Shown piece after piece: positions 22,409 to 29,811 of a stretch of DNA of 44,443 nucleotides. Position 1 is the stretch's first letter; the number at the start of each line of letters is the position of its first letter. The notes beneath the pieces are model-generated. The model ran no database searches, was not told where the DNA came from, and saw only the letters and a list, made by a program, of their open reading frames with translations. A program made the translations under genes and the position numbers. This DNA comes from a virus, in IMG/VR virus record IMGVR_UViG_3300027082_000002, positions 1 to 44,443 of that record; one strand, given 5' to 3'.

Positions 22409-23233
22409 ATGACTGCACCGCTGACCACCACTCCTGACGTTCGCAGCCACCTGGCCAACGTGCTGTCCGGCAAGGCCGAGACGCACGGCGAACACTGCCG
22501 CATCCACGGCAGCTACATCGCCACCAAGATGCCCAACGGCAAGTGGTCCGACTGCCCGGACTGCATCGAAGAGGAAAAGGATCTGCAGCGCCAGGCCGAG
22601 CAACGCGCGCGCGCCGGGCAGGCCAACGCCGGCCGCCTCGAGAAGCTCCGCGAGGGCTCGTTGATCCCGCGTCGCTTCCAAAGCCGCACGCTGGAGGGCT
22701 TCAAGACCGATAGCCGCCGCGACAAGGCCTTCGCCCTGACGGCCTGCCAGCGCTACGTCGAGCGCTTCGACGAGCGCCTCGAGCAGGGTGGCGGCATGGT
22801 GCTGACCGGCTCCGTGGGCGCCGGCAAGAGCCACCTGGCCTACGCCATCGGCAATGCACTGCTGGAGCGTGGCCATCGCGTGATGGGCATCGACGTCTAC
22901 GAGCTCATCGACCTGATCAAGGAGCGCGCCTTCAGCCGCGAGAAGGGAGCTAGCGAGCGCGAGGCCATCAAGGCGTTCGTCGCCGGCCTCGACCTGCTGA
23001 TCCTCGACGAGATCGGCGCCCAGCTGGGCACCGAATGGGAGCGCCTGATGCTCTTCAAGATCATCAACGAGCGCTACAAGGCCCAGCTGCCCACCATCCT
23101 GATTTCCAACATCGACGCGGGCGCACTGAGCGACTACCTGGGCGAGCGCATCCTCGACCGCATGACCGAGGGCGGTGGCATGACGCTGACCCTGGACTGG
23201 GAGAGCTACCGCAAGGAGGCCGGCCATGCGTAA
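22409..23233 (+). CDS. DnaC/IstB-like helicase loader ATPase
   Basis: 274 residues. A Cys/His knuckle at the N-terminus (C30, H33, then CPDC at 49-52) precedes the AAA+ core with Walker A GSVGAGKS (134-141), Walker B LLILDE (196-201), and sensor residues in PTILISNIDA. This is the DnaC-type loader that brings host DnaB to the phage origin with the O-like protein. It overlaps the next gene by 8 bp. ATG 22409 follows the initiator stop directly. Confidence 0.9.
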   Translation: MTAPLTTTPDVRSHLANVLSGKAETHGEHCRIHGSYIATKMPNGKWSDCPDCIEEEKDLQRQAEQRARAGQANAGRLEKLREGSLIPRRFQSRTLEGFKTDSRRDKAFALTACQRYVERFDERLEQGGGMVLTGSVGAGKSHLAYAIGNALLERGHRVMGIDVYELIDLIKERAFSREKGASEREAIKAFVAGLDLLILDEIGAQLGTEWERLMLFKIINERYKAQLPTILISNIDAGALSDYLGERILDRMTEGGGMTLTLDWESYRKEAGHA

Positions 23234-23948
23234 GCCCTGGACCCCCGAGGAGGACGCCCGGCTGATCGCCCTGCGCGAGGCCGGCCACTCCATCAACCAG
23301 GTGGTCGCGGTGCTGGGCCGCACCCGCGGCAGCGTCTCCAGCCGCATGACCAAGCTGGGGCTGTTCAACAAGAACACACAACGGCCCTGGACGGCGGAGG
23401 AGATCGATCATCTGATCGCCCACTACCGCGACCCCGAGTGGCCGGTGAAGCGCCTGGCCGCGCGCTACGGGCGCACCAAGGGCGCGGTGCGTATGCGGGC
23501 CGCGTATCTCGGCATCCAGCAGCCGGAGCGGGATTACAAGACCAAGCCCGCCGAGGTGGACCAGCGCATCGTCACCCTGGCGATGGCCGACCTGCCCAGC
23601 GACGAGATCGCCGAGCGGGTGGGCTGCTCGCCCGGCTACGTGTGGCGGGTGATGAAGCAGCGGCCGAACCTTCACCGCCAGTGGAAGCGCGAGAACACCC
23701 CGGCACCGGCGGACACCGGGGAGGCCTACGCCGAGGCACAGAAAATTAACACGCCGCCCGCCGAGCCCGAGCCGGCACCGTCGGCCGTGCCTGCCGAGCT
23801 TCTCGACCGCTGCGCCGCCATGCACCTGACGCTGCTCGAGCAGACCCGCGAGGCCTACGCCCGGGGCAACGAGAGCGCCGGCCGTGAGCTGGCCTGGCTG
23901 ATCGAGACCGGCGAGCAGCTGGTGGCCGCGGGAGGTGAGGCGGCATGA
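23226..23948 (+). CDS. Tandem SANT/Myb-like DNA-binding protein (240 aa)
   Basis: 240 residues with two Trp-anchored Myb/SANT-like repeats (RKPWTPEEDARLIALREAGHS, then RPWTAEEIDHLIAHYRDPEWP) and a third helix-turn-helix (LPSDEIAERVGCSPGYVWRVMKQ). A Pro/Ala/Glu linker separates them from a helical C-terminal domain. Proteins of this kind occur beside phage replication genes; the function is not settled. The N-terminal repeat resembles the leftward gene at 12089-12508. It overlaps both neighbours by 4-8 bp. Confidence 0.75.
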   Translation: MRKPWTPEEDARLIALREAGHSINQVVAVLGRTRGSVSSRMTKLGLFNKNTQRPWTAEEIDHLIAHYRDPEWPVKRLAARYGRTKGAVRMRAAYLGIQQPERDYKTKPAEVDQRIVTLAMADLPSDEIAERVGCSPGYVWRVMKQRPNLHRQWKRENTPAPADTGEAYAEAQKINTPPAEPEPAPSAVPAELLDRCAAMHLTLLEQTREAYARGNESAGRELAWLIETGEQLVAAGGEAA

Positions 23949-24565
23949 GCAAGCCCAAGCCCTACATCTCCCGCGCCACGACCCTGCAGGACGCTCTGGC
24001 TGCAAGCAGCGAGTTCTTGCCGATTCCTGGTTATGAGGATCGATTCGAGATCAATAGGCACGGCGTGGTGAGGAGTATTCGCAGACCCGTCAACAGTCCT
24101 GTTGCTGGTGGCAGCAGAATGATCGGCGGCAAGGTTCTCAAGCCAGCCATTGTGAAGGGGTACCCAGCGATACAGCCGAACGTTAAAGGCACTCGCAAGA
24201 CGCTGTATCTCCACCGGGCTATGGCCGAGCTATTTGTTCCCAACCCGGATGGCAAGCCGTTCGTCAACCACATTGACGGCGACAAGACAAACATGAGCCC
24301 AGATAACCTTGAGTGGTGCACGCACAAAGAGAACATGCGTCACGCCTTCTCTACTGGGTTGGCGCCTAACCCCAAGACCGGGCCTGGCGAAGCGAGCCCT
24401 TCGGCAAAGCTCAACAACGAAAAAGTACGCCTCATCAAGTACCGCCTAAAGCTCGGCGAGAGCCATGCCTCAATAGCTGCTGATTTCGACGTCCGCCCCG
24501 GAACAATCACCTTCATCGCGAATGGCGATACATGGGCTCATGTACGCATGGAGGGTGAATCATGA
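23945..24565 (+). CDS. NUMOD4-HNH homing endonuclease fused to a NinB-like N-terminus
   Basis: 206 residues. Residues 1-20 (MSKPKPYISRATTLQDALAA) do not belong to the nuclease: they resemble the first residues of the NinB gene that follows (YVSQARSMEDILAA). From residue 24 the sequence is a NUMOD4 motif (PIPGYEDRFEINRHGVVRS), then an HNH core (LHRAMAELFVPNPDGKPFVNHIDGDKTNMSPDNLEWCTHKENM), and a C-terminal helix-turn-helix (GESHASIAADFDVRPGTITFIAN). Base composition falls at the junction near base 24008. The nuclease gene appears to have captured the ninB start codon and ribosome site. Confidence 0.85.
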   Translation: MSKPKPYISRATTLQDALAASSEFLPIPGYEDRFEINRHGVVRSIRRPVNSPVAGGSRMIGGKVLKPAIVKGYPAIQPNVKGTRKTLYLHRAMAELFVPNPDGKPFVNHIDGDKTNMSPDNLEWCTHKENMRHAFSTGLAPNPKTGPGEASPSAKLNNEKVRLIKYRLKLGESHASIAADFDVRPGTITFIANGDTWAHVRMEGES

Positions 24566-25047
24566 GCGAAAAAGAGTATGTGTCCCAAGCCAGGAGCATG
24601 GAAGACATCCTCGCAGCCATCGCAAAGCTGCCTGGGATATGCAGCAAGGCGCTGCAGCAGTGGGGGGCTATTGAAATTGTGGTGAGGAAGAAAAAACGAA
24701 AGCGAAGTCTTGATCAAAATCGCCTCGGTCGCCTGTGGTGCAAGGAGGCCAGCGAGCAAGGCGACATGACCGCCGAGGAGTATCGCGGGTACTGCAAGCT
24801 TCACTTCGGCATGGCCATCCTCTGCCGCGACTCCGAGAAGTACCTGGCCGCCTGCCAGAAAGTGCTAGGTGGCCTCACCTATGAGCAGAAGCTGGCGCTG
24901 ATGATGCAGCCGCACGACTACCCGGTCACGCGGGGCATGACCAAGCGGCAGAAGGCCGAGTACCTGAACGAGTGCTACCAGCACTTCACCGGGCTTGGCT
25001 TCCGGCTGACCGAGCCGAGCCTGCAAGGCTATGAGGAGGCGGCATGA
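24562..25047 (+). CDS. ninB: NinB-like recombination protein
   Basis: 161 residues: KRKRSLDQNRLGRLWCKEASEQGDMTAEEYRGYCKLHFG, then TRGMTKRQKAEYLNECYQHFTGLGFRLTEP, the NinB family pattern. NinB (Orf) is a recombination mediator that binds SSB and single-stranded DNA in the lambda Red pathway. The N-terminal 50 codons are AT-richer than the rest, like the HNH gene just upstream, and the start is coupled to it by ATGA. The N-terminal segment therefore seems to have arrived together with the nuclease gene. Confidence 0.85.
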   Translation: MSEKEYVSQARSMEDILAAIAKLPGICSKALQQWGAIEIVVRKKKRKRSLDQNRLGRLWCKEASEQGDMTAEEYRGYCKLHFGMAILCRDSEKYLAACQKVLGGLTYEQKLALMMQPHDYPVTRGMTKRQKAEYLNECYQHFTGLGFRLTEPSLQGYEEAA

Positions 25048-25304
25048 AGCGCAGTTCAGAATTGCGGCGCAAATCGCCCATTTCGGCTGGTTCAGGGCTC
25101 AAGCGTAAACCGATGAAGGCCCGGCCCAAGCGCAAGGCCAGGACCGACAAGCGCTGGCGATCGCCGGACTACCTCGCCTGGGTGCGGCAACGCCCCTGCT
25201 GCTTTTGCGCGCTCGGGCCTTGCGATCCGCACCACGTCATCGGGCTTGGCTGGGGGCTCTCCGGCATGGGCCTCACGGCACCGGAAGACAAGGAGGCTTT
25301 ATGA
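25044..25304 (+). pseudogene. Truncated DUF968/HNH-like gene, 5' remnant
   Basis: 86 residues ending in HHVIGLGWGLSGMGLTAPEDKEAL. The final domain matches residues of the intact gene at 26373 up to the exact GLSGMGL-AP point (KRWRSPDYLAWVRQRPCCFCALGPCD against KRFRSKKYTNWVKSRPCVFCGISPCD). The downstream catalytic MPLCRYHHDAVH part is missing and replaced by EDKEAL and a stop, where the Dam gene begins. The N-terminal 25 residues are basic. The ribosome site and start are intact, so a truncated zinc-knuckle protein may still be made. Confidence 0.75.
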
Positions 25305-25756
25305 GCAATATGGACGTTCATTTCAGTAGCAAGACGGACATGTGGGCGACGCCGAACGACTTCTTTGCCAGCTTAGATGCCGTTTTCCGATTTGAGACTG
25401 ATGTTTGTGCGATTGCTGAGAATGCTAAGTGTGCCCGTTACTTCACCCCTGAGATGGACGGGCTTTCTCAGGAATGGGCGGGTATCTGCTGGATGAACCC
25501 GCCCTATGGCCGGGGGATCGGGGCGTGGGTCGGGAAGGCTCTGGAGAGCGCCAAGACGAACGGCGCCACTGTGGTATGCCTCCTGCCCGCTCGTGTGGAT
25601 ACGCGCTGGTGGCACGACTACTGCACACAAGGCGAGGTGCATTTCCTTAAGGGGCGGCTCAAGTTCGGCGACGCCAAGCATAGCGCGCCATTTCCCTGTG
25701 CAGTCGTGGTGTTTCGCCCCTCCGTTCTCGACGCAGATATTGAGGTGGCTGCATGA
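25301..25756 (+). CDS. Phage N6-adenine DNA methyltransferase (Dam-like)
   Basis: 151 residues: SKTDMWATPNDFFASLDAVFRFETDVCA, the catalytic motif WMNPPYG (NPPY at 66-69), VVCLLPARVDTRWWHDY and LKGRLKFGD, characteristic of the phage DNA N-6-adenine-methyltransferase family. It methylates adenine in a short site, protecting against host restriction or marking phage DNA. AAGGAGG lies just before ATG 25301, and both ends overlap neighbours (ATGA). Together with the HNH gene that follows it interrupts DUF968. Confidence 0.88.
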   Translation: MSNMDVHFSSKTDMWATPNDFFASLDAVFRFETDVCAIAENAKCARYFTPEMDGLSQEWAGICWMNPPYGRGIGAWVGKALESAKTNGATVVCLLPARVDTRWWHDYCTQGEVHFLKGRLKFGDAKHSAPFPCAVVVFRPSVLDADIEVAA

Positions 25757-26376
25757 CCTGGCATAAAAAGCGATTCACCCCAGATGAGAAGAAGGTTCAT
25801 GTCCAGTGCAAGAACTGCGCGCGGGATATGTGGCTGCCGCCCAGCAAGGTCGAGATGTACCGATGCTGCTCGAAGGCATGCAAGTCGGCTATCAGCGCCG
25901 CCAGGATTGGCGCTCGGACTCGGCCATGCGAGACGTGCGGCACCGTTTTCACTCCGAGGAAATATCAGGTTGAGAACGGCGCTGGCCGTTACTGCTCGCA
26001 AGCCTGCAATGAGGCTGCGAGGAGCGCACTCATGACTTACGAGGCAAAAGCGAAAGCAAAGGCCGTGATGGCTGAAATGCGCGCAGCCGGAATGATCAAT
26101 ATGCCAAAAGGGGAGCAGAACCACAGGTGGGCTGGCGGTGTTTCTCGGGCCAACGGTTACATCAACCTTCGCAAAGGCGCGCGCTACATTCCCGAGCACA
26201 GGCTGGTAATGGAGGAGCACCTTGGCCGACGCCTCCGAACTGATGAGGTTGTGCACCACATCAACCACGACAAGACGGATAACCGGATTGAAAATCTGCA
26301 AGTCATGTCGCGCGCCGAGCACATCGACGAGCATCGTGACGACCTCGTGGCGGGGCTGAGGAGGGCCGGCAAATGA
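25753..26376 (+). CDS. HNH homing endonuclease with N-terminal zinc fingers
   Basis: 207 residues. Two Cys4 modules at the N-terminus (VQCKNCARDMWLPPSKVEMYRCCSKAC, then PCETCGTVFTPRKYQ ... GRYCSQAC) bind zinc. The C-terminal HNH core reads YIPEHRLVMEEHLGRRLRTDEVVHHINHDKTDNRIENLQVMSRAEHIDEH, with the HH, N and H residues of the family. This is a free-standing homing endonuclease of the kind phages pass to each other. ATGA overlaps link it to Dam and to the intact DUF968 gene, so the three move as a unit. Confidence 0.87.
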   Translation: MTWHKKRFTPDEKKVHVQCKNCARDMWLPPSKVEMYRCCSKACKSAISAARIGARTRPCETCGTVFTPRKYQVENGAGRYCSQACNEAARSALMTYEAKAKAKAVMAEMRAAGMINMPKGEQNHRWAGGVSRANGYINLRKGARYIPEHRLVMEEHLGRRLRTDEVVHHINHDKTDNRIENLQVMSRAEHIDEHRDDLVAGLRRAGK

Positions 26377-26708
26377 AGGACAAGCGATTCCGCTCGAAAA
26401 AATACACCAACTGGGTGAAGTCCCGCCCGTGCGTGTTCTGCGGCATTTCGCCATGTGACGCACATCACGTTATTGGCCTTGGGTGGGGCTTGTCTGGGAT
26501 GGGCCTCAAAGCACCATGCTCGTTCACCATGCCGCTGTGCCGCTATCACCATGACGCCGTGCATCGCTCGCCGGGGCTGCAATCACAGCAGCCGACCTGG
26601 CTGCGCTGGACGATCCGCGCGGCGCTGGCTGAGGACTTTGACACCGAGACGCGCGAGGAGCTGACCCATGCCCTTGCGTTCCTTGAGGCACAGGAGGCAG
26701 AGGCATGA
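26373..26708 (+). CDS. DUF968-like HNH protein, intact copy
   Basis: 111 residues: RSKKYTNWVKSRPCVFCGISPCDAHHVIGLGWGLSGMG, then MPLCRYHHDAVHRSPG, an HNH-like zinc site (CxxC ... HH ... CxxHH), then a helical C-terminus. The family is a putative nuclease of the lambdoid nin region (compare the Ref and DUF968 proteins), perhaps processing recombination structures. It is the complete homologue of the truncated gene at 25044. DNA of the shared part differs mostly at silent positions, so it is not a fresh duplicate. Confidence 0.78.
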   Translation: MKDKRFRSKKYTNWVKSRPCVFCGISPCDAHHVIGLGWGLSGMGLKAPCSFTMPLCRYHHDAVHRSPGLQSQQPTWLRWTIRAALAEDFDTETREELTHALAFLEAQEAEA

Positions 26709-27043
26709 GCGTTTGCATGACATGCGGCGGGGTGGATGGTCACGGCTTTGGCTGTGATGAGGCGTGGGCCGAGGAGCGCGCCGACGTGCTGGGGCAGAAC
26801 GGCAACGATGGCCAGCACTATGACGCCGTTGACCGCCCCGAGCACTACCAGAGCGAAGCCGGCATCGAGTGCATCGACGCCATTCGCGCCGCCCTGGGCC
26901 TCGAGGGATTCGTGGCGCACTGCCGGGGCACGGCTCTCAAGTACGCCTGGCGCTCGGGCAAGAAGGCCGCCCATGCCGAGGATCTACGGAAGGGGGCTTG
27001 GTACTTGACCAAGGCCGCCGAGGCACTGGAGGACGAGCAATGA
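26705..27043 (+). CDS. DUF3310 protein
   Basis: 112 residues. A short Cys/His N-terminus (MSVCMTCGGVDGHGFGCDE) is followed by the DUF3310 domain: YDAVDRPEHYQSEAGIECIDAIRAALG, RGTALKYAWRSGKK, and EDLRKGAWYLTKA. The family is widespread in phages and has been annotated as nucleotide kinase-like, but its activity is not established. It overlaps both neighbours by 4 bp in the nin-like region. Confidence 0.8.
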   Translation: MSVCMTCGGVDGHGFGCDEAWAEERADVLGQNGNDGQHYDAVDRPEHYQSEAGIECIDAIRAALGLEGFVAHCRGTALKYAWRSGKKAAHAEDLRKGAWYLTKAAEALEDEQ

Positions 27044-27237
27044 ACGCATACGAGCACGCTGTCGATGATGAACTGATTGTGGCGCATCTCGGCGTGACGG
27101 TTCCCGGCGACGATTACGAGACCGCAAGGAAGAAGCTCCAGCAGCTCATCGACTGGCATATCACCGTGGCGACTGACCCGCGCGTCAACGGAGGGTATCG
27201 GCTGGTCAAGGTTGAGGAGGACGAACCATGCAAATGA
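27040..27237 (+). CDS. Hypothetical protein (65 aa)
   Basis: 65 residues (MNAYEHAVDDELIVAHLGVTVPGDDYETARKKLQQLIDWHITVATDPRVNGG ...) with a helical core and acidic start, common in small nin-region genes. ATGA-coupled to DUF3310 upstream and overlapping the next gene by 10 bp. The family is not recognised. Confidence 0.6.
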   Translation: MNAYEHAVDDELIVAHLGVTVPGDDYETARKKLQQLIDWHITVATDPRVNGGYRLVKVEEDEPCK

Positions 27238-27419
27238 TCAGCAGCGCAGCAGGCACCCGGCTGGCTCGCGCCAAGGTGGCGCTAGACAAGCTGCATGACC
27301 GTGGCCCGCACGACCTCGATGCCGACGACGCCTGGGATGAGTACGTCAACGCAGCCGAGGACCTGGCCGATGAGCTGGTGGCGCAAGGCTTCCACGCCCT
27401 GGATGGGGCAGAGAAATGA
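27228..27419 (+). CDS. Hypothetical acidic protein (63 aa)
   Basis: 63 residues (MQMISSAAGTRLARAKVALDKLHDRGPHDLDADDAWDEYVNAAEDLADEL ...), all-helical with an Asp-rich middle. The ribosome site GAGGACG lies within the end of the preceding gene. The function is unknown. Confidence 0.55.
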   Translation: MQMISSAAGTRLARAKVALDKLHDRGPHDLDADDAWDEYVNAAEDLADELVAQGFHALDGAEK

Positions 27420-27628
27420 CGGCTTTAGCGTACTTCCTTATAGGCATGGTTGTTGGCTGTTTCATGGCGTATGCGGCTGGAGATGGCCTGGAGTCAGAGC
27501 CGGTCGCTGCTGGACTCATGGGGCTCGTCGCTTGGCCGCTGGTGCTTCTCATAGTCGTTGTGGCTCTGCCTTTTCTGCCCCTGCTGTGGCTTTTCGGCAA
27601 GTTAGGTGAAGCGGGGGGCGAGCGATGA
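27416..27628 (+). CDS. Small membrane protein with two spans (70 aa)
   Basis: 70 residues with two hydrophobic helices: about 3-21 (ALAYFLIGMVVGCFMAYA) and 33-58 (LMGLVAWPLVLLIVVVALPF). A short polar turn and a charged C-terminus frame them. A hairpin membrane protein in this place could be an exclusion or accessory factor; size and topology also fit a small holin, but it lies 2.4 kb before the late promoter, so a lysis role is unlikely. Confidence 0.6.
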   Translation: MTALAYFLIGMVVGCFMAYAAGDGLESEPVAAGLMGLVAWPLVLLIVVVALPFLPLLWLFGKLGEAGGER

Positions 27629-28020
27629 GCAAGACGAGTCGCACCAAGGGAGCCGCAGGGGAGCGCGAACTGGCCGCCCTGCTCGGCGAGCGGTTGGGGC
27701 TCAGTCTCCGCCGCCGCCTTGCGCAGTACCAGGCCGGCGGGCACGACCTCGAGGGATGGGACGGCGTGCATATCGAGGTGAAGCGCTACAAGGCCGCCAG
27801 CCAGGGGCAGGTGGCCGGCTGGTGGCAGCAGACGCTCGAGCAGTGCGCAGGCGGTGAGACGCCGCTGCTGGCATACCGTGCCGACCAGCAGGCGTGGCGC
27901 TTCGTGCTTCGCCCCTGCGATTGGGGCGGCCCGACGCCAGAGCCGGCAGAGGTCGACATCGACGGGCTGTGCGCCTGGGTGCGCAGCGGGCAGCAATTGA
28001 CCATGGAGGTCAGCGAATGA
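27625..28020 (+). CDS. PDDEXK-type phage nuclease, possible Holliday junction resolvase
   Basis: 131 residues. A KGAAGERELAALL helix carries the first acidic residue; then GGHDLEGWDGVHIEVKRYK supplies the D and E-x-K of the PD-(D/E)XK fold, followed by WWQQTLEQC and PLLAYRADQQAWRFVL. Proteins of this shape replace RusA or NinG in nin-like regions and are likely structure-specific nucleases for recombination intermediates. Start and stop both overlap neighbours. Confidence 0.75.
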   Translation: MSKTSRTKGAAGERELAALLGERLGLSLRRRLAQYQAGGHDLEGWDGVHIEVKRYKAASQGQVAGWWQQTLEQCAGGETPLLAYRADQQAWRFVLRPCDWGGPTPEPAEVDIDGLCAWVRSGQQLTMEVSE

Positions 28021-28148
28021 AGCGTATCGCGTATTGGGCGACTCTCACCGTGCTGGCCGGGGCCATCACGCTCGGGCTGTCAGCCATTGGCGAGCCGCAA
28101 TCGGCATGGTTTGTCTGCGACCTCATGGGTGTGGAGGTGTGCGGGTGA
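28017..28148 (+). CDS. Tiny membrane or secreted protein (43 aa)
   Basis: 43 residues: a basic start (MKRIAYWATL) and one hydrophobic segment (TVLAGAITLGLSAIG), then a Cys-containing tail (WFVCDLMGVEVCG). Coupled by ATGA overlaps on both sides, which is the main evidence. It may be a signal-anchored peptide; the role is unknown. Confidence 0.5.
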   Translation: MKRIAYWATLTVLAGAITLGLSAIGEPQSAWFVCDLMGVEVCG

Positions 28149-28327
28149 CCGACAAGCAAGCCGAGAAGCCGCATATCAGCAGAGCCAAGAGAGGCGGATG
28201 GAAGTGCGTCGGGGCGCACATCATCTGCTACAGCAGCAACGTGTATGAGGCGTGGGCCGGATGGGCGGGCGTGCCTGTGGATCGTCCGTATGAGCCAGAA
28301 AAGCGCAGCCGCCGGGAGGACGCATGA
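28145..28327 (+). CDS. Hypothetical protein (60 aa)
   Basis: A GTG start overlapping the previous stop (GTGA) opens 60 residues with SRAKRGGWKCVGAHIICYSSNVYEAWAGWAG. This matches the small phage proteins that read GWKC ... G.S...AYEAW, perhaps a short beta-hairpin domain. The C-terminus is basic (YEPEKRSRREDA). The function is unknown. Confidence 0.55.
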   Translation: MTDKQAEKPHISRAKRGGWKCVGAHIICYSSNVYEAWAGWAGVPVDRPYEPEKRSRREDA

Positions 28328-28524
28328 AGTGGCACAAGCGCAGCGAGACGAGTATCGGATGCGGCGACTGGATCATCTGCCGTACCCGGCACAGCGGAGT
28401 GGATATGTACACGCTGCATCGCGGACAGGACGTGGTGGGGTTTTACGAAAAATCTGCGGAAGCAAAGAAATCGGCTGAGTGCGGAGGAGGAGAGCTGTGG
28501 GCGAACTCGCGTGGGGAGTATTGA
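28324..28524 (+). CDS. Hypothetical protein (66 aa)
   Basis: 66 residues (MKWHKRSETSIGCGDWIICRTRHSGVDMYTLHRGQDVVGFYEKSAEAKKSAEC ...), a small beta-rich fold followed by a helix, with a DUF-like GCGDWIIC start. The HNH gene begins inside its last 28 bases. The reading frame past the HNH start is short (GELWANSRGEY), and could be a trimmed C-terminus left by that insertion. Confidence 0.55.
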   Translation: MKWHKRSETSIGCGDWIICRTRHSGVDMYTLHRGQDVVGFYEKSAEAKKSAECGGGELWANSRGEY

Positions 28525-29117
28525 GAGAGCTTCTGGACTATGACGCAGGCTCAGGGATTTTTACTTGGCGTCAGCGAGATCGCAGCTGGTTTAAGTCCGA
28601 CAAATCGTGCCAGCTATGGAACGCGCGAGATTCGGGAAAGCGAGCCGGCTGCATCCAGCGCAGGAAAAGAAACGGCTATCGTTCTCGCCATATAAGGCTG
28701 CTAGGAAAAAGCTATATGGAACATCGCTTGGCTTGGATGTGGATGATGGGAGAGATGCCAAAAGGACAGATAGACCATATAAACCGGGATGCTACAGACA
28801 ATCGATGGTCAAATCTAAAACAATCAACATGCGATGAGAATTCCAAAAATCACTCAATGCGGGCGAATAACTCGTCTGGCGTTACAGGCGTGTATTGGAA
28901 GACGGATGCGGGAAAGTGGTGTGCGGTTTGCGGGCTTGGCGGGAAGTCTCACCACCTCGGGTATTTTGACGACATTGAAGAAGCTGCAAAAGTTGTCACT
29001 GAGTTTCGATGCCGGCATGGGTTTTCTCCTGGCCACGGGGTTCGCCTAGCCCATTACCACAATCAGGACGACACGGCAGCACAGGCAAAGGCAGCGGCAG
29101 CCAAGGAGGACTCATGA
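28497..29117 (+). CDS. HNH homing endonuclease with AP2-like C-terminal domain
   Basis: 206 residues from GTG 28497, six bases after GGAGGAGGAG; a GTG at 28479 precedes this site and is not chosen. N-terminal LRELLDYDAGSGIFTWRQRDRSW and GYRSRHIRLLGKSYMEHRLAWMWMMGEMPKGQIDHINRDATDNRWSNLKQST are the HNH domain with its H-N-H set. The C-terminal part SGVTGVYWKTDAGKWCAVCGLGGKSHHLGYFDDIEEAAKVV is an AP2-type DNA-binding domain. The gene is visibly AT-richer than its neighbours, a sign of recent acquisition. Confidence 0.88.
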   Translation: MGELAWGVLRELLDYDAGSGIFTWRQRDRSWFKSDKSCQLWNARDSGKRAGCIQRRKRNGYRSRHIRLLGKSYMEHRLAWMWMMGEMPKGQIDHINRDATDNRWSNLKQSTCDENSKNHSMRANNSSGVTGVYWKTDAGKWCAVCGLGGKSHHLGYFDDIEEAAKVVTEFRCRHGFSPGHGVRLAHYHNQDDTAAQAKAAAAKEDS

Positions 29118-29743
29118 GCGAGCGACTCAAGATTGCAACCGACCCCAAGATTGCATGGGCGATGGCGATGGATAGCGGCGTCCGGTCGCAGATGGGGCCG
29201 ATCCTCGAGGATCTTCGCAACGGCGGGGGCATTCAGTACACCGTAAAGGGTGGGGAAGGCGCCTCGCATGGCGCTGACTACGCCCCCATCTATGCCCGCA
29301 TTGCGCAGATGGAGCGGGAGCGTCCCGAGCTGGCCGCAGTGGGGCACGTGCTTTGTCATCCCGATATTGAGCGCGGCAACGCCTGGCTAGACGAGGCGGC
29401 GGACGCGGTGCATGGGGTTGCGGTCGGCATGATCCCGAATTGGAGCGATGGTCGAGCGTGGAAGCCTGCGAAGAAGACGCGTGTCGTGTATTTGGTGCGC
29501 GTGGCGATGATGGAGCGCCGCCTTAACCTGAGCAATGACCGCCCAGCCTGGCCGCCAGAGAGGATCGGCGAGATGATGGCCGACTGGTATGGCGTGTCGA
29601 TCACTACCCGCGACTGGTCACGCGACTGGATGCCGACATGGGCGGTAATCCATGCTGCTATCAACCAGATGGAGGCTGACGCGGTAGAGCCTGTCAGCGA
29701 TGTGATCGGCGAGATGATCCAGAAAAGCCGCCGCGCTGCATGA
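29114..29743 (+). CDS. Last early gene, unrecognised; positional candidate for late antiterminator
   Basis: 209 residues without a family I can name (SERLKIATDPKIAWAMAMDSGVRSQMGPILEDLRNGG, PNWSDGRAWKPAKKTRVVYLVRVAMMERRLNLSNDRPAWPPERIGEMMADWYGVSITTRDWSRDW). The basic Trp-rich middle could bind nucleic acid. In lambda-type genomes the gene here is Q, acting on the late promoter that follows. The next 240 bp hold a promoter and two terminators, the target set for such a protein. The role is inferred from place only. ATG 29114 follows AAGGAGG. Confidence 0.55.
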   Translation: MSERLKIATDPKIAWAMAMDSGVRSQMGPILEDLRNGGGIQYTVKGGEGASHGADYAPIYARIAQMERERPELAAVGHVLCHPDIERGNAWLDEAADAVHGVAVGMIPNWSDGRAWKPAKKTRVVYLVRVAMMERRLNLSNDRPAWPPERIGEMMADWYGVSITTRDWSRDWMPTWAVIHAAINQMEADAVEPVSDVIGEMIQKSRRAA

Positions 29744-29782
29744 GATGAATTCACGCGCCTATCATGCAGAAGTGAAAAGCAT

Positions 29783-29811
29783 TTGATTTTCCGCGCCCGC
29801 CATGCTACCTT
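29783..29811 (+). promoter_or_regulatory. Candidate late promoter
   Basis: TTGATT (29783-29788), 17 bases, TACCTT (29806-29811) on the plus strand, 40 bp after the last early gene. Two terminators follow before the lysis genes, as with lambda PR'. Confidence 0.5.

Follow-up and report, generated by a model that had tools for sequence, protein, structure and literature searches.

A DUF968 gene present in two copies around a Dam–HNH pair in a nin-like phage operon: a probable insertion carrying part of a diverged DUF968 gene

How did a Dam-type methylase gene and an HNH nuclease gene come to lie between a truncated and a longer copy of the same DUF968 gene? The question is raised by a nin-like operon in virus record IMGVR_UViG_3300027082_000002, the whole 44,443 bases of which constitute the window analyzed here. 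The operon is encoded on the + strand in the order HNH1 (23945–24565), ninB (24562–25047), DUF968 copy 1 (25044–25304), Dam (25301–25756), HNH2 (25753–26376), DUF968 copy 2 (26373–26708), and DUF3310, which starts at 26705 and together with the next small gene forms the right flank (26705–27237). Successive frames from HNH1 through DUF3310 are joined by 4-base ATGA overlaps, and the four frames between 25044 and 26708 were recovered exactly as the first-pass annotation had placed them. HNH1 is a NUMOD4-HNH_3 nuclease (Pfam HNH_3 and NUMOD4) whose first ∼20 codons are a ninB head. The following ninB (Orf family; phrog_7283, E = 2.4e-23) is composite, with a low-GC3 5′ third and a relative-like 3′ part. 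A third HNH nuclease gene, HNH3 (28479–29117, + strand), lies where two further genes of this operon meet, as recognized by comparison with locus L128, bringing the homing-type HNH genes to three within ∼5 kb.

Both DUF968 copies score above the Pfam cut-off of 27.8 bits (42.7 bits for copy 1 and 72.7 bits for copy 2), and they are the sole partial gene duplication in the window (self-BLASTP, E ≤ 1e-4). The copy 1 product has 86 amino acids and that of copy 2 has 111, with residues 35–80 of the former aligning to residues 3–48 of the latter (33/46 identical, 72%; pair E = 1e-25). Over this shared stretch DNA identity is 91/138 (66%), and the codons differ at 17 of the 33 identical residues, bearing out the earlier description of the shared parts as alike in protein but different at silent sites. 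Estimated by NG86, dN is ∼0.26 and dS is ∼2.4, the latter being saturated and unreliable. The low amino acid divergence of the core together with the many silent differences argues that the truncated copy would have been a working gene until recently, because both copies apparently worked for most of the time since their separation.

Copy 1, hereafter the stump, consists of a basic N-terminal tail and the first half of the HNH core. Its product was said to stop six residues past the shared part, and indeed GLTAP is followed by EDKEAL and a stop codon. Dam, an HNH gene, and a DUF968 copy are all present downstream as annotated; the copy was called complete, however, and while copy 2 has a complete HNH core and a C-terminal part, it lacks the ∼33-residue basic tail that the stump shares with most full-length relatives. 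Tail-less DUF968 forms are also found elsewhere (L102, L103, and L105). The AlphaFold2 model of copy 2 (pLDDT 93.8) contains strands at residues 29–32 and 52–55 and a helix at 57–65; in this model, strand 52–55 and helix 57–65 with strand 29–32 carry both halves of the active site. The stump ends at the equivalent of copy 2 residue 48 and has no counterpart of H60/H64. By the predicted structure of copy 2, the full HNH core with both metal-site halves is thus present in copy 2 and not in copy 1, the stump having lost the second strand and helix, i.e., half of the HNH active site. A Foldseek search with the copy 2 model returned HNH nucleases as all of its top seven matches, which at weak E-values of 0.1–0.3 is consistent with that assignment only, and PHROG 96 (phrog_96), to which DUF968 corresponds, is named HNH endonuclease. 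For Gram-positive phages, Curtis et al. (PMC4118853) described DUF968 proteins in which an Orf (NinB) domain is fused to an HNH nuclease. The present locus is reminiscent of such Orf-linked nucleases in that both copies match DUF968 (PF06147) and their relatives follow ninB (orf). It differs in that Orf/NinB and the DUF968 nuclease, one protein in some Gram-positive phages, are encoded here by neighboring genes, and in that copy 1 is cut within the HNH core while copy 2 is without the basic tail. Copy 2 is probably a working, tail-less DUF968.

An uninterrupted counterpart of the locus is found in IMG/VR contig L219, which contains ninB, an intact DUF968 gene (129 residues), DUF3310, and a homolog of the window gene o27040, with no Dam or HNH between them. 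Three parts of the window match this contig at the DNA level: 25092–25282 in copy 1 (L219 3123–3316, 73% identity), 26427–26564 in copy 2 (L219 3228–3365, 75%), and 26843–27215 from DUF3310 to o27040 (L219 3731–4103, 71%). DUF3310 and the next gene are 76% and 66% identical to the genes directly 3′ of the intact DUF968 in L219, and the right flank is thus collinear with it. L219 is only ∼73% identical to the window, and the left flank is not common to both since the L219 ninB is of a different type (28%). Single intact DUF968 genes following ninB occur also in L008, L009, L095, L103, L126, and other loci from Halomonadaceae-group prophages and IMG/VR contigs. Copy 1 aligns to the 5′ part of such intact genes (74% to L126/L219 over residues 17–80; 62% to L008/L009), and the nearest relatives of copy 2 are L220 (67%) and L126/L219 (63%). 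The BLASTN similarity of copy 1 to intact genes ends at 25282 (L219, L126, and L217) or 25285 (L095 and L097), just 5′ of the Dam ribosome-binding site (AAGGAGG, 25290–25296), placing the left junction and Dam leader at 25283–25300 (+ strand).

Phylogenetic analysis placed L126 and both copies in one clade (98/95), with the pair of copies alone supported at only 87/54 and the internal order left open. A suggestion from a quick tree that the two copies have different nearest relatives was dropped, as the careful tree gave it no support. Short-form DUF968 genes (L102 and L103) were rejected as the donor of copy 2, its core motif being that of the long form and the tree separating the short forms. 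Within copy 2, a GC3 changepoint that might mark a composite boundary was not significant (p = 0.69), and in a nearest-relative scan the core was nearest L217/L126 while L220 came closest to the C-terminal part, by margins too slight for a boundary to be claimed. Searches of phages, plasmids, 275 Halomonadaceae-group genomes, and IMG/VR turned up no Dam–HNH2–DUF968 donor. Annotated phages and plasmids contain distant relatives of DUF968 and HNH2, none so arranged; searches for HNH2 and Dam in the 275 genomes gave weak or partial matches only; and a Pfam family search over the wider order yielded few matches and no split genes.

The Dam gene is apparently full length and contains the NPPYG motif (within WMNPPYG), scoring 99.7 bits and above the cut-off for PF05869 (phrog_111, E = 1.5e-53). 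Dam homologs 65–77% identical are found in L001–L007, and in L004–L007 they lie just 5′ of ninB-like genes. One Halomonadaceae prophage (L104/L116; also L206) has an intact DUF968 immediately 3′ of Dam and ATGA-linked to it, with a RusA-like gene next and no HNH. Dam lies one or two genes upstream of DUF968 in enterobacterial phages, the order in L145, L147, and L151 being Dam, RusA-like gene, DUF968, and it is upstream of DUF968 in about a dozen of the fetched loci. Judging from these Dam–DUF968 and Dam–ninB neighborhoods, Dam is a usual resident of such operons, and a donor with Dam beside DUF968 would be natural. The window resembles other nin-type regions (L003–L007, L104, L145, and L151) in having a full-length Dam (PF05869) in a nin-like operon, and differs from them in that an HNH gene separates Dam from DUF968. 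The first-pass annotation had proposed that the methylase was cargo or protected the cleavage site; since Dam directly precedes an intact DUF968 in L104/L116, a special role of either kind is possible though not needed. The Dam gene (25301–25756) also exhibits 65–75% DNA similarity to Dam of Paenibacillus phage Lily, a Staphylospora plasmid, and Acinetobacter phages, and may thus have traveled widely between hosts. GATC occurs 291 times in the window, whereas base composition alone predicts ∼147, so that the site is in excess and not avoided. Two GATC sites of copy 1, at 25159 and 25224, are without equivalents at the corresponding aligned positions in copy 2.

HNH2 combines a zinc finger with an HNH_3 nuclease part whose H-H-N-N-H motif is intact (47.2 bits, E = 1.7e-12, cut-off 24.8 bits); a zf-FCS match lies only below its own cut-off. 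As predicted from its sequence, it has both the catalytic motif and the DNA-binding part of a free-standing homing endonuclease gene. It occupies a separate frame carried by neither a self-splicing intron nor an intein, and Rfam returned no intron family up to E = 1 in 23000–29800. A group I or II intron between the DUF968 copies was likewise rejected, with no Rfam match and a 46-residue overlap that rules out simple exons. HNH2 is inserted relative to alleles without it, namely L219 (no Dam–HNH) and L104 (Dam–DUF968 without HNH); the insert relative to L219 comprises both Dam and HNH, leaving the exact HNH edges unfixed.

The best described relatives of HNH2 are hidden HNH frames inside mycobacteriophage DNA methylase genes, among them the hidden HNH of the ShiLan element (∼39% over 136 amino acids), whose patchy distribution has been taken as evidence of active homing (PMC11855218). 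HNH2 shares with that element a zinc finger, an HNH part, and an association with a DNA methylase. In contrast to the ShiLan HNH, which is out of frame inside the methylase, HNH2 is a separate, ATGA-linked gene 3′ of a Dam-type methylase. The mycobacteriophage methylase genes with an HNH2 relative inside them include both N6_N4 and C5 cytosine methylases, which are unrelated families (L093 1866–3749 and L094 1653–3537). Among HNH2-related IMG/VR loci, 15/80 have a methylase-motif gene within 700 bases. The motif was found in 15 of 209 near genes as compared with 3 of 626 distant genes over all loci, and in 4/121 as compared with 0/399 after dereplication (Fisher p = 0.003); Pfam identified N6_N4 and D12 methylases beside these relatives. 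Of the dereplicated HNH2-like loci, only 4/43 have a methylase-motif neighbor. HNH2 may thus have as strong a link with Dam as with DUF968.

The simplest reading of the locus would be insertion of Dam–HNH with part of a diverged DUF968 gene, because L219 keeps the gene order of the window with an intact DUF968 and without Dam–HNH. Entry of this unit into a resident DUF968, with HNH2 as the possible cutter, appears reasonably probable, and it is favored by two nearby HNH insertions, HNH1 in ninB and HNH3 at its joint, whose sites are empty in relatives. Counting against it are the donor searches that found no such block, the modest identity of L219 together with its different ninB, and the absence of a significant boundary within copy 2. 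Alongside the observed anatomy, uninterrupted relatives, natural Dam–DUF968 order, and methylase association of the HNH2 family, we infer the direction of the event, its donor, and HNH2 as the cutter, as follows. An ancestral operon like that of L219 (ninB, DUF968, DUF3310, o27040) would have received, within its resident DUF968, Dam, the HNH2 gene, and a 5′ core from a diverged DUF968; the first 80 codons of the resident gene would have remained as the stump, while a tail-less, probably working DUF968 was re-made on the 3′ side. The most likely source of the unit is a phage in which Dam stood directly 5′ of DUF968, with HNH2 at the joint between them. Recombination at a break in DUF968 is likely, with homology inside DUF968 serving to join the right side and a junction free of homology forming on the left, just 5′ of the Dam ribosome-binding site, and HNH2 may have made the cut in the manner of free-standing homing endonucleases. 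Copy 2 had been attributed to a diverged phage that supplied it together with Dam and HNH; insertion with a diverged DUF968 part is retained from that proposal, and a separate donor phage is plausible rather than proven, as the tree leaves the order of L126 and both copies open.

The same arrangement could have arisen by ordinary mosaic exchange between a ninB–DUF968 phage and a Dam–HNH2–DUF968 phage, in which one junction, within the first DUF968, was illegitimate or homeologous and HNH2 was a passive passenger that had settled earlier at the Dam–DUF968 joint. This explanation has a substantial chance of being correct, if less than an even one. It draws on the natural Dam–DUF968 order of L104/L116 and the many loci with Dam upstream of DUF968, on the gene-by-gene switching of best relatives along the operon, which marks a highly mosaic region, and on the promotion of exchange between diverged sequences by Red-type recombinases (PMC2327257). 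A nuclease role looks less coincidental, however, given that ∼5 kb contain three homing-type HNH genes, of which at least two have empty sites in relatives, and nuclease genes have been reported at the boundaries of phage gene exchange (PMC10448857). Taken by itself, entry driven by the nuclease would come close to an even chance without quite reaching it, and passive exchange slightly less close. Alternatively, Dam and HNH2 may be the mobile pair, HNH2 belonging to a family that homes on methylase genes, with Dam or a methylase related to it containing the cleavage site and DUF968 merely marking where the tract ended. The HNH insertions in mycobacteriophage methylase genes and the N6_N4 and D12 neighbors of the IMG/VR relatives speak for such a pair, but the scarcity of methylase neighbors among dereplicated loci and the existence of 65–77% identical Dam relatives without an HNH directly beside them make it rather unlikely.

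An old tandem duplication of DUF968 within the lineage, followed by Dam–HNH insertion between the copies and reduction of the first, was already disfavored and is improbable. The copies do group in the careful tree, though weakly, but silent sites near saturation with conserved protein would require that the duplicate be kept working for a long time. Two intact, adjacent DUF968 genes without Dam–HNH, which the first-pass annotation had named as the mark of simple paralogs, were found in no relative among ∼150 partly redundant DUF968 loci, the second match in L110 being distant and of HNH type only. It is more improbable still that the stump is a retained functional product rather than debris, for example a DNA-binding fragment or a translational coupler between ninB and Dam. 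The stump does keep an intact frame, tied by ATGA overlaps to both neighbors, yet half of the HNH fold seen in the copy 2 model is missing, and no second such stump was found in the ∼150 loci to indicate conservation.

Compared with known systems, the insertion reading has precedents. Free-standing phage homing nucleases of the T4 mob/seg type beside or inside genes are known (reviewed in PMC2988022), as are the genes split by mobA and mobE (PMC2988022) and nuclease genes at the boundaries of phage gene exchange (PMC10448857). HNH2 resembles the T4 enzymes in lying within or beside an important phage gene, in its intact motif and sporadic distribution, and in the diverged target sequence that flanks it, as expected of co-conversion. 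Unlike those cases, the putative homing gene HNH2 belongs to an insert that has a cut-off target on one side and a replacement copy on the other rather than the two parts of a simply split gene, and a methylase lies between stump and nuclease. With its stump, methylase, nuclease, and replacement copy in succession, the locus would be a new variant. Entry of a mobile nuclease free of introns and inteins into a tight operon without killing its target is not well documented, and in the present operon relatives provide the preinsertion site for two of the three HNH genes. The DUF968 target sits among recombination genes (NinB/Orf and its HNH partner) and could itself influence recombination.

The first-pass annotation considered that ninB and DUF968 had been invaded according to the same plan, and ninB is the cleaner of the two apparent cases. 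HNH1 carries a ninB head in frame: its residues 1–20 are 95% identical to the ninB start of L095, and the corresponding DNA (23929–24003) is 84% identical. Within the downstream ninB, the match to relatives picks up again at 24655 (L095), 24712 (L242), or 24735 (L097 and L103). GC3 changes at 23993 in HNH1 (1.00 to 0.63, p = 0.015) and at 24730 in ninB (0.57 to 0.89, permutation p = 0.0005), and relatives L095, L238, and L242 have ninB without an insert. These similarity breaks and GC3 shifts give HNH1, together with the 5′ third of ninB, the look of foreign DNA set into an older ninB, as expected from homing with co-conversion. The shared plan holds for the similar order and the empty sites in relatives, but not in detail, since the ninB remnant is fused in frame to HNH1 and the ninB copy is full length, while in the DUF968 case the stump has a frame of its own and the copy is tail-less. 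Whether ninB and DUF968 constitute two adjacent instances of a repeatable route by which homing HNH genes enter compact essential operons, leaving a stump and bringing a rescue copy, is doubtful. A general entry route, as had been suggested, gains no support from the ∼150 partly redundant DUF968 loci, among which no other Dam–HNH–DUF968 block or split DUF968 was found. If true, each HNH would bring the 5′ part of a diverged target and re-create a working, cleavage-resistant gene behind it, the old 5′ end becoming a stump, and no splicing element would be needed. The appeal of the locus itself lies in the related outcomes seen in two neighboring genes. HNH3 lies cleanly at its gene joint 2 kb downstream, where L128 is continuous (5288|5294) at the position interrupted in the window (28479|29120). 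In IMG/VR contig L250 (4118–5530), an HNH3-type nuclease lies ∼0.6 kb 3′ of an intact DUF968, and the gene is not split there.
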